Below, piece after piece: positions 18,970 to 24,079 of a DNA stretch of 64,000 bases. Every line of letters begins with the position of its first letter. The first letter of the stretch is position 1. The notes beneath the pieces are model-generated. The model was given only the letters and a program-made list of their open reading frames with translations. It had not been told where the DNA came from and did no database searches. Position numbers and translations under genes: made by a program. The stretch is from Clostridiales bacterium (GTDB lineage Bacteria; Bacillota; Clostridia; Christensenellales; Borkfalkiaceae), in contig JAFLVN010000004.1 of the NCBI GenBank assembly GCA_022508285.1, positions 62,001-126,000 of the forward strand. Direction: 5' to 3'.

Positions 18970-20043
18970 ATGAAAAAAGTTAAAGCCTATTTAACGCTTA
19001 AAAACGGCAAACAATTCGTTGGCTACCGCTTCGGAGCCGACGATGAAATGGTCGGCGAACTCGTTTTCACTACGGGCATGACAGGGTATATCGAAACGCT
19101 GACCGACCCGAGCTACTTCGGGCAGATCGTCACGCAAACCTTCCCTCTCATAGGCAACTACGGTATGATTTCTCCCGACAGGGAAAGTAAAAAATCGTGG
19201 GTTTCGGCTTATATCGTGCGGGAGAAGTGCGACGACCCCTCTAATTTCAGGTGCGAGGAAACGCTCGATAAATATTTAAAAGAAAATAATATAATCGGAC
19301 TTTACGGCATTGATACCCGTGAGCTCACCAAAATTGTGAGAGAGGCGGGCGTTATGAACGCCGCAATCACCTCAAAGCCGCTTGCGGATTTTTCCGAAGT
19401 CAATAAATTTATAATTAAAGACGCCGTAAAGAGCGTTACCTGCAACGAAGTAGAGTATTACGGCAATCCTGAAGGTTATAAAGTGGCAGTATGGGACTTC
19501 GGCGCAAAGGAGAATATCTTGCGCGAGCTTGTTAAGCGAGGCTGCTATTGCATAAAGGTGCCTTCGTGCTACACGGCTGAGCAAATTTTATCTCTCAATC
19601 CTGACGGGCTCATGCTCACGAATGGTCCGGGTGACCCCGCCGAGAACGTGGAAATTATAGAAAATATCAAAAAAATCGCAGGTAAACTTCCGATTTTCGG
19701 CATATGCCTCGGTCATCAGCTCTTTGCGCTTGCAATGGGCGGCAAGACAAAAAAGATGAAGTACGGTCACAGAGGCGCAAACCAACCCGTAAAAAATCTT
19801 GAAACGGGCAGGGTGTATATCTCAAGCCAAAACCACGGTTACGAGGTCATTTCGTCCAGCGTACCCAACGGAAAGCTCACTTATGTAAACGCAAACGACA
19901 ATACCTGCGAGGGCTTTGAATATCCCGAGCTCAACGCCTATACTGTGCAGTTCCATCCCGAAGCTTGCGGAGGACCGCAGGATGCGTCCTTCCTTTTCGA
20001 TAAATTTATACAAAATATAGAGGAGAGCAAGCGCAATGCCTAA
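18970..20043 (+). CDS. carA: Carbamoyl-phosphate synthase, glutamine-hydrolysing small subunit
   Basis: Class I glutamine amidotransferase subunit that feeds ammonia to CarB for pyrimidine and arginine synthesis. The N-terminal CPSase domain (AYLTLKNGKQFVGYRFGA... TTGMTGYIETLTDPSYFGQI) is followed by the GATase with catalytic Cys about residue 246 (GICLGHQLFALAMGG) and FHPE near the end. The chosen start is ATG 18970, with AAGGA at spacing 7, rather than the in-frame TTG at 18952. 357 residues. It overlaps carB by 8 bases. Confidence 0.96.
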   Translation: MKKVKAYLTLKNGKQFVGYRFGADDEMVGELVFTTGMTGYIETLTDPSYFGQIVTQTFPLIGNYGMISPDRESKKSWVSAYIVREKCDDPSNFRCEETLDKYLKENNIIGLYGIDTRELTKIVREAGVMNAAITSKPLADFSEVNKFIIKDAVKSVTCNEVEYYGNPEGYKVAVWDFGAKENILRELVKRGCYCIKVPSCYTAEQILSLNPDGLMLTNGPGDPAENVEIIENIKKIAGKLPIFGICLGHQLFALAMGGKTKKMKYGHRGANQPVKNLETGRVYISSQNHGYEVISSSVPNGKLTYVNANDNTCEGFEYPELNAYTVQFHPEACGGPQDASFLFDKFIQNIEESKRNA

Positions 20044-23000: not shown

Positions 23001-24079
23001 GGCTCTCTTCCAACGATGAAATATTCAAGTTGATGGACGAAGGCAAGATTGATTATATAGTTTATACGGGTAAAACGGATATCGAGTCGATAACCAACTA
23101 CATGAGCTTACATCACCATGCAATTCTGCTCGGTATAACCCTTTTGACTTCGCTCGACACGACAAACGCTCTTGCCGACGTCATAGCCGGAAGATATAAT
23201 CAATTCAATACCGAGCTTGTTGATATAAACAATCTGCGCAAGGAAAAGCTGAAGTTGAACTTCTGCAAGATGCACAGTTGCGGCAACGACTATATATTCT
23301 TTAACAACATGAATAACACTATCACATGCCCCGAGTCGCTTGCAATAAACTTCTCGGATAGGCACTATGCAATCGGCGGCGACGGCATAGTTATGATTGA
23401 AAAGTCGGGCATTGCCGACGCAAAAATGCGGGTATTCAACCGTGACGGCAGTGACGGCGGCATGGCGGCTAACCCTTTAAGATGCGTTGCAAAATATTTG
23501 TACGACAACAGAATTGTCAAGTCGGATACAATTTCGGTTGAAACGTGCAGTGGCGTTAAAAATCTTACAATAAATTCGTTTAACGGCAAAGCAAGCTCCG
23601 TTTCTGTAAACTTGGGTAAGCCAGAAGAAATTATATTGGACGGCAACCGTGCCCAATCCGCCGAGCTGTGGATCAAAACACGTGAAAAAGGCTATAAAGT
23701 GAACTTTGTCAACGTGGGAAATCCCCATTGCGTTGTGTTCTGCGACAAGGTTGACGATATAGATATCGAGGAACTCGGGCAGGTGATCAATGAATTAGGT
23801 AAGTTCCCGAATGGAATTTACGTTGAATGTGTAAGAGTAGTAAATAATTTAACTTTAAAAGCCCGCGTTTGGGAAAAGCGCAACGGCGAAACGTTATCCT
23901 GCGGAACTGCGGCGGCTGCGGCAACTGTTGCGGCTGTTGCAAACGGCTACTGCACACGTGATGCAATTATTACGGTTAAGCTCAAGGGCGGCGATCTGTT
24001 CGTGAGAAACCGTGAAAACGGCGACGTCGAACTTGACGGAACTGTAAAATTATCATTTGAAGGTCTTATAGAAATTTAA
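20036..24079 (+). CDS. carB: Fusion of carbamoyl-phosphate synthase large subunit (CarB) and a diaminopimelate epimerase-like domain (DapF)
   Basis: 1347 residues in one uninterrupted frame. Residues 1 to about 1070 are a full-length CarB: two ATP-grasp halves ([20 protein letters not shown] and [20 protein letters not shown]) and a C-terminal MGS-like regulatory domain ending ...VDINNLR, the usual CarB end. After only a few residues the DapF fold begins ([17 protein letters not shown]) and runs to the stop. It keeps NPHCVVF and the second catalytic motif GETLSCGT (Cys about 1289). The first motif, normally DGSE..MCGN(G/A)IRC, reads [14 protein letters not shown], so the catalytic Cys is Ala1144. 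A possible internal start (TTG 23255, AAGGA at spacing 10) could yield DapF alone. CarB activity is near certain; epimerase activity is doubtful. ATG with GGAG upstream; overlaps carA by 8 bases and the next gene by 1. Confidence 0.93.
   Translation: [1347 protein letters not shown]

Follow-up and report, generated by a model that had tools for sequence, protein, structure and literature searches.

An apparently undescribed CarB-DapF fusion, widespread in Clostridia, with a probable pseudo-epimerase domain

Introduction

Carbamoyl-phosphate synthases (CPSases) are known as multifunctional chains and, judged by analogy, the nearest precedent for a CPSase with a pseudoenzyme domain of the kind considered here, a CarB-DapF fusion encoded in 64,000 nucleotides (the window) of contig JAFLVN010000004.1 of a Clostridiales bacterium of the gut, is yeast URA2. 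The available text of PMC6245113 describes this protein as a CPSase-ATCase (aspartate transcarbamoylase) carrying an inactive dihydroorotase-like domain. Both URA2 and the window protein thus combine a CPSase chain with a catalytically dead enzyme domain. In that text, the dead domain of URA2, also found in other fungi, comes from the same (pyrimidine) pathway and lies between CPSase and ATCase, whereas that of the window protein comes from the lysine/peptidoglycan pathway and is C-terminal, and its catalytic residues have been lost repeatedly among fusions of which other members look intact. As in a URA2-like system, the window genome combines a degenerate domain in the CPSase chain with an intact version elsewhere (DapF rather than dihydroorotase); in contrast to URA2, ATCase is not part of the chain, and the Pfam matches of the fusion protein, CarB domains and DAP_epimerase, include no ATCase domain.

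Three other systems bear on the comparison. E. coli CarB (TIGR01369) has the same full domain set and likewise a carA directly upstream, whereas the window CarB has an extra C-terminal DapF domain and an apparently remodelled nucleotide-effector site. The diaminopimelate (DAP) epimerase DapF (TIGR00652; PDB 2otn, 1gqz) resembles the fused domain in fold and length, with 33% identity to 2otn and with Cys217 and several pocket residues shared, but the window domain is fused to CarB, and its Cys73, Gly74, Asn190 and Arg209 are replaced. Finally, a catalytically dead form of E. coli DapF, according to PMC4227774, remains able to bind and activate RppH, so that the DapF fold can act without catalysis and without need of its catalytic cysteines, although in E. 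coli, according to the same text, DapF is a separate, active enzyme with a different partner protein.

The original prediction for this locus, made from the window sequence, knew of no described CarB-DapF fusion, and a text search of open-licence PMC papers indeed found no description of one; nor was a fusion-specific NCBIfam model present among the matches listed (25 of 43). The fusion, which joins two unrelated biosynthetic enzymes, appears to be both undescribed and widespread.

The carB-dapF gene and its conservation

The fusion occupies positions 20036..24079 of the forward strand as a single open reading frame (ORF) of 1347 amino acids (aa) that runs from ATG to stop with no break. It matches TIGR01369 (CarB; 1409.8 bits vs. 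a cut-off of 1027; residues 2-1048, profile positions 1-1050 of 1052) and TIGR00652 (DapF; 206.7-212 bits vs. a cut-off of 114.65; residues 1075-1344), which bears out the uninterrupted CarB-DapF frame that had been reported. Likewise borne out were a full-length CarB and a minimal linker: the CarB moiety (residues 1-1068, 20036..23239) ends with VDINNLR at Arg1068 (23237-23239), and is joined to DapF by about six residues, with the codons KEKLK (23240..23254) lying between CarB and the DapF start-codon position. The DapF domain, a predicted pseudo-epimerase recognised by TIGR00652 and Foldseek (see also the start-codon survey below), extends over 23255..24079. The score for NF038284 (bifunctional DapF/glutamate racemase) was well below the cut-off (108.5 vs. 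350 bits), and the CarB moiety of the fusion is the sole CarB match in the window genome at E 1e-30. Modelling of the allosteric domain of CarB together with the DapF domain in AlphaFold2 (419 residues, 80 sequences) gave a mean pLDDT of 89.7 and a pTM of 0.71, with a weaker junction (pLDDT blocks of 70 and 66), and the top Foldseek match of this model is 2otn (TM 0.86 by target length, at the identity given above).

Conservation was assessed in 81 genomes of the window's genus and in an independent collection of 62 named loci that includes Candidatus Coproplasma (Clostridia). A CarB match was present in 71 of the 81 genus genomes and included the C-terminus in 69 of these, the other two being cut before it; in all 69, the frame runs on past the CarB C-terminus. 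The full-length genus CarB matches, 87-96% identical to the window CarB, number 63 and sit in frames of 1342-1385 aa; identity of the fused DapF domain to that of the window is 57-73% across the other loci listed for the genus (29) and up to 77% in the named loci. In the independent collection, DapF is in frame with the C-terminal part of CarB at 62 of 62 loci and with at least 1000 CarB positions at 57 of these; four loci start late in CarB, where the contig ends or a run of sequence is masked. One further locus contains a stop codon inside carB (L039:2637-2639, approximately position 907), far from the junction, which is open, attributable to damage or sequencing error.

Beyond the genus, the fusion was followed up in 60 genomes, a few of them truncated by contig ends, from an even draw of 248 genomes of the order, a figure that, coming from the match list, means at least 60. 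It was found in at least 44 genomes outside the order in a draw of 391 genomes of the class, the count being of listed matches in which a single frame leads from CarB into DapF (G364, with a stop in between, was excluded), and in at least 10 genomes outside the class in a draw of 299 genomes of the phylum. The CarB-DapF fusion is genuine, and many families across the class and the phylum carry it. The search for the same architecture in related genomes, proposed as a check of the original prediction, has thus come out in its favour, whereas the chance stop-codon loss offered there as one explanation has to be abandoned: an assembly error or an isolated loss of this kind is ruled out by the 69 run-ons in the genus together with the independent assemblies of many families.

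The active site of the fused DapF domain

Residues are referred to below by H. influenzae DapF numbers, the equivalences being based on alignment. In the window domain, the position of the catalytic Cys73 is occupied by Ala1144 (23465..23467) and that of Gly74 by Ala1145, and the substrate-binding Asn190 and Arg209 are replaced by Tyr1262 (23819..23821) and Lys1281 (23876..23878), respectively; the second catalytic cysteine, Cys217, is retained as Cys1289 (23900..23902). The catalytic pair accordingly consists of an alanine and a cysteine, and among the six substrate contacts, Asn64, Asn75, Asn157 and Glu208 are kept in addition to the two replacements. Thus, the description of this domain as a complete DapF holds for length and fold but not for the active site. 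According to PMC5296763, C. glutamicum DapF becomes almost inactive when the residue equivalent to Cys73, Cys217, Asn190 or Arg209 is replaced by alanine; these mutants are alanine substitutions, whereas the window carries Tyr and Lys at the positions of Asn190 and Arg209.

The same replacements are found throughout the genus. Among 34 rows of the genus alignment, the Cys73 position is Ala in 32 and Ser in 2, position 74 is Ala or Val in all 34, the Asn190 position is Tyr or Phe in 32 and the Arg209 position is Lys in 31, with Cys217 kept in 33; the Glu208 position is more variable (Glu 14, Asp 10, Gly 7), as is that of Asn157 (Asn 24, Lys 9).

A second, stand-alone dapF, the presence of which had been named as a further check, was found in the window genome (G000:C12). 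It encodes 278 aa from ATG with intact MCGN and ACGTG motifs, has all the active-site residues discussed above and is 44% identical to the fused domain; stand-alone DapF copies contain both cysteines in 61 of 61 rows (60 distinct). Because the catalytic Cys73 and the contacts Asn190 and Arg209 are replaced and an intact stand-alone dapF is present elsewhere, the fused DapF of the window is, judging by these residues, almost certainly not a DAP epimerase, and annotation as dapF from the TIGR00652 score would credit the protein with this activity in error. The earlier proposal that a need for both proteins made the fusion tolerable does not hold for this genome, given the intact stand-alone gene and the degenerate fused domain. 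In two of the 10 genus genomes (of 81) without a CarB match, G073 and G077, the only DapF found is the stand-alone copy, consistent with this copy being the working epimerase.

An internal start yielding a separate DapF was considered as well. At the stand-alone DapF start-codon position, the window has TTG preceded by AAGGA. In a survey of 92 rows (62 named and 30 genus loci, with some genomes represented twice, and with L052 and L061 placed outside the genus by the tree), TTG occurs in 2 rows, and 62 rows have no ATG, GTG or TTG within the 11 codons examined; this survey rejects an internal start conserved across the genus. Among rows outside the genus, an in-frame ATG is present at the junction in 71 of 101 (9 more were unscored), often, in the printed rows, as the Met of an NNMR-like motif, and relatives outside the genus may have an internal DapF start.

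Loss of catalytic residues across relatives

When 145 fused rows (142 distinct; without G167 and G252) were scored for the catalytic cysteines, both were present in 54, at least one was lost in 57 rows outside the genus, and Cys73 was lost in 34 of 34 genus rows. Mapping the lost state onto the best CarB tree takes 11 changes, some of them on weakly supported branches. Stand-alone dapF was coded by hand in 108 rows (G042, which holds dapF fragments, was counted as lacking it): 49 rows with an intact pair have no stand-alone copy and 5 have one, and among the rows with a lost pair, 39 have a stand-alone copy and 15 do not. A strict rule that catalysis is lost only beside a stand-alone dapF fails, with 15 of 54 lost rows lacking such a gene and 5 of 54 intact rows having one. 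In G049 and G112, the intact fused domain is the only dapF found.

DAP dehydrogenase (Ddh) bypasses DapF. When this enzyme was searched for in 80 genomes, it was present in 11 of the 14 genomes in which the pair is lost and a stand-alone dapF is missing (G042 is not among the 14). Taking stand-alone dapF and Ddh together, in 78 rows, 24 intact rows have neither, the fused domain being the only one of the three routes found there, and 33 lost rows have at least one alternative. These counts indicate a trend whereby catalytic loss occurs mostly where a stand-alone dapF or DAP dehydrogenase exists; the trend is consistent, with too few independent pairs for significance (see below).

Selection on the domain was estimated from pairwise comparisons, which are simple, involve high dS and are accordingly rough. 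For the named loci and the window (105 pairs, dS <1.5), the median dN/dS is 0.031 for CarB and 0.126 for the fused DapF; for 30 stand-alone DapFs of the genus (181 pairs), it is 0.193. The value of 0.126 speaks for purifying selection on the fused domain. In lost lineages outside the genus, the ten non-cysteine ligand contacts equal the intact consensus in 93.9% of cells, compared to 88.7% for other near-invariant columns. Because the pocket contacts are kept after catalysis is lost, this suggests that outside the genus the pocket outlives catalysis, hinting at ligand binding. Within the genus, as judged from the aligned residues, the pocket is remodelled in a fairly consistent way. Two loci, L275 (G624) and L276 (G661), have a strongly eroded fused DapF with many contacts replaced, although the domain retains its full length and its reading frame.

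The nucleotide-effector site of CarB

We take Ser1026, Arg1030 and Arg1031 of E. coli CarB to be nucleotide-effector contacts. Alignment to this protein places Arg989, Tyr1022, His1026 and His1027 of the window CarB at Lys993, Ser1026, Arg1030 and Arg1031, respectively, and the effector region of the allosteric (MGS) domain (23000..23116) thus appears remodelled. The allosteric domain of E. coli CarB binds UMP and IMP, with Thr977 and Lys993 mattering for UMP and Thr1042 for ornithine (available text of PMC6245113); in the window, Thr977 and Thr1042 are kept and Lys993 is changed to Arg. Within the window-holding clade, which comprises 36 fused rows, Tyr, Phe or His is found at Ser1026 in all 36 rows and a residue other than Arg at Arg1030 in 32, whereas the other fused rows (54 intact and 27 with the pair lost elsewhere) have Ser or Asp at Ser1026 and Arg at Arg1030 in 81 of 81. 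In the window-holding clade, both the regulatory part of CarB and the active site of DapF have therefore changed, whereas elsewhere catalysis was lost with the effector site unaltered; as the double change is confined to one clade, it is suggestive only.

Origin of the fusion

In the CarB trees, which, like the DapF trees, were quick searches with many weakly supported forks, the fused CarBs group into a single clade (64 of 64 and, with a mixture model, 44 of 44, 98*). In a tree of 150 rows, this clade comprises all 118 fused rows and G252, the sole row in it labelled unfused; the carB match of G252 ends near a contig end and its DapF half begins another contig, indicative of a contig-edge fragment. 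Since the fused CarBs form one clade, a single carB-dapF fusion event, long ago, is supported by these trees. Reversal by loss of the domain was seen in none of the 118 sampled fused rows.

Unfused CarBs of family f50 sit just outside the fused clade, and in one of these genomes, G426, dapF is the next gene. The order of genes in G426 as a pre-fusion state is suggestive only: its CarB is next outside the fused clade, yet its DapF is nearer to stand-alone copies. At two loci, L213:2504-6484 (G247) and L279:265-4359 (G364), a carB of an unfused lineage (tail LLDVLEE...) is followed in the same frame by a stand-alone dapF, the gap consisting of a single stop codon plus another three or four codons. 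Because the carB genes at these two loci belong to a different, unfused CarB lineage, carB-dapF adjacency exists in more than one lineage. These loci illustrate how such a fusion can arise, one stop loss being enough, on the face of the sequence, to produce a second one.

Possible roles of the fused domain

We propose, with moderate confidence, that the window protein is a CarB with a C-terminal retired DAP epimerase that now serves CarB non-catalytically as a regulatory or oligomerising pseudoenzyme module. The sequence data support a single fusion of carB and dapF, long ago; a fused DapF that, in many relatives, has a complete catalytic site and is the only dapF found; several losses of the catalytic cysteine pair, the window lineage included; and a domain never lost in the fused CarBs examined and held by purifying selection. 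DapF is a dimer. Dimerisation of CPSase relies essentially on its regulatory domains, according to PMC6245113. For both reasons, the domain, which adjoins the allosteric domain of CarB, could alter oligomerisation or the allosteric response. Where the pocket is kept, binding of DAP or a related amino acid may persist; in the window's genus, because the pocket is remodelled, the ligand may have changed or a structural role alone may remain.

A more specific and tentative version, possible but clearly less probable than the general one, is that the captured DapF became a sensor for CarB. With one catalytic cysteine gone, the pocket would bind its ligand, DAP or a related amino acid, but not turn it over, and would set carbamoyl-phosphate output, tying pyrimidine and arginine synthesis to the supply of peptidoglycan precursors; in the window-holding clade, this module would have taken the place of the nucleotide-effector site or been rewired along with it, and in the genus a new ligand would be bound. 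The fusions appear to comprise a natural enzyme-to-pseudoenzyme series within one protein, from intact-looking domains through domains with a lost cysteine and a kept pocket to the remodelled pocket of the genus, in which it is directly testable, with matched proteins, whether a retired enzyme domain turns into a sensor.

Several observations weigh against the pseudoenzyme module. The regulatory or binding role of the domain in CarB is one that we infer from sequence. The change of the effector site is confined to one clade, and the 27 rows in which catalysis was lost elsewhere keep an ordinary effector site. The association of catalytic loss with alternative routes is incomplete: 18 of 42 intact rows also have an alternative (Ddh), and in G661, G683 and G263 catalysis is lost and neither alternative was found. 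In comparisons of independent pairs, the association is not significant, either for stand-alone dapF (4.1 for vs. 0.5 against, median p = 0.219) or for stand-alone dapF or Ddh (2.6 for vs. 0.0 against, median p = 0.25). Constraint on the fused DapF, as measured by dN/dS, is about four times weaker than that on CarB. Within the genus, conservation of the ligand contacts falls below that of other near-invariant columns (60.9% vs. 70.9%), an argument against continued DAP sensing there. Finally, the fused domains are not one clade in the DapF trees, where 3 changes are needed; because of these changes, the DapF domain may have been replaced in some lineages, with which the trees are compatible.

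The main rival explanation is a structural ratchet (constructive neutral evolution), whereby a domain useless in itself has become required by CarB for folding, solubility or dimer formation, so that it erodes but cannot be lost. Its absence of loss among the 118 fused rows despite repeated loss of catalysis, its location directly after the regulatory domain through which, in the available text of PMC6245113, CPSase dimers form, and the greater erosion of ligand contacts than of other conserved columns in the genus are all as this explanation would have it. The ratchet alone does not account for the ligand contacts retained in 93.9% of cells in lost lineages outside the genus, where other near-invariant columns are kept less. 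We rate it as rather unlikely. A new enzymatic activity, such as a one-cysteine isomerase or an enzyme with another substrate, in which Tyr1262, Lys1281 and Cys1289 would form a new active site, is improbable. The retention of Cys217 in 33 of 34 genus rows and the consistency of Tyr or Phe at position 190 and Lys at 209 resemble remodelling rather than decay, and the fold family includes other chemistry, e.g. PhzF among the Foldseek matches, but the Glu208 and Asn157 positions vary within the genus, the Cys73 position holds Ala or Ser, and no new invariant acid or base was identified, a systematic search for one not having been part of the analysis.

Compared to these, a bifunctional CarB and DAP epimerase, which is what the names of the family models imply, is very improbable for the window protein, notwithstanding a TIGR00652 score above the cut-off: Cys73, Asn190 and Arg209 are replaced, single alanine substitutions at the equivalent residues almost abolish the activity of a DapF (available text of PMC5296763), and the window genome has an intact stand-alone dapF. 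Such an enzyme is plausible in the many relatives that keep an intact pair and lack any other dapF; the original suggestion of a bifunctional enzyme joining two pathways therefore fits relatives such as G049 and G112 but not the window's genus. An assembly error or isolated chance stop-codon loss, in favour of which no point was found, has a probability close to nil in view of the run-ons and independent assemblies described above.

Neighbouring genes and individual loci

All genes of the window described here lie on the forward strand. Directly upstream of the fusion is carA (18952..20043), encoding the CPSase small subunit (Pfam PF00988 and PF00117, ORF list), which overlaps carB-dapF by 8 nucleotides. 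Downstream, a cysteine desulfurase-like gene (aminotransferase class V, PF00266; 24079..25206) begins with an ATG on the last base of the fusion stop codon (a 1-base overlap) and is followed by thiI (PF02568; 25208..26362). An Rfam scan of the window gave zero matches. Within 3 kb downstream on the same strand, a cysteine desulfurase-like gene was found at 59 of the 62 named loci, and thiI is downstream at 61 of 62; in the comparison set, both genes follow the fusion at only 6 of 58 loci, all six in the window's family.

Several genomes have two carB genes, one fused and one not: L139/L214 (G195), L141/L216 (G236), L143/L215 (G309), L146/L213 (G247) and L197/L229 (G113). The two copies come from separate parts of the CarB tree and perhaps represent pathway-specific CPSases. 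At L206:1641-5456 (G058), a divergent CarB-like frame 1272 residues long lacks DapF and sits on a very long branch, and at L202:557-4873 (G151), the fused open frame of 1439 residues has approximately 85 residues more than usual ahead of the point where the CarB match ends.

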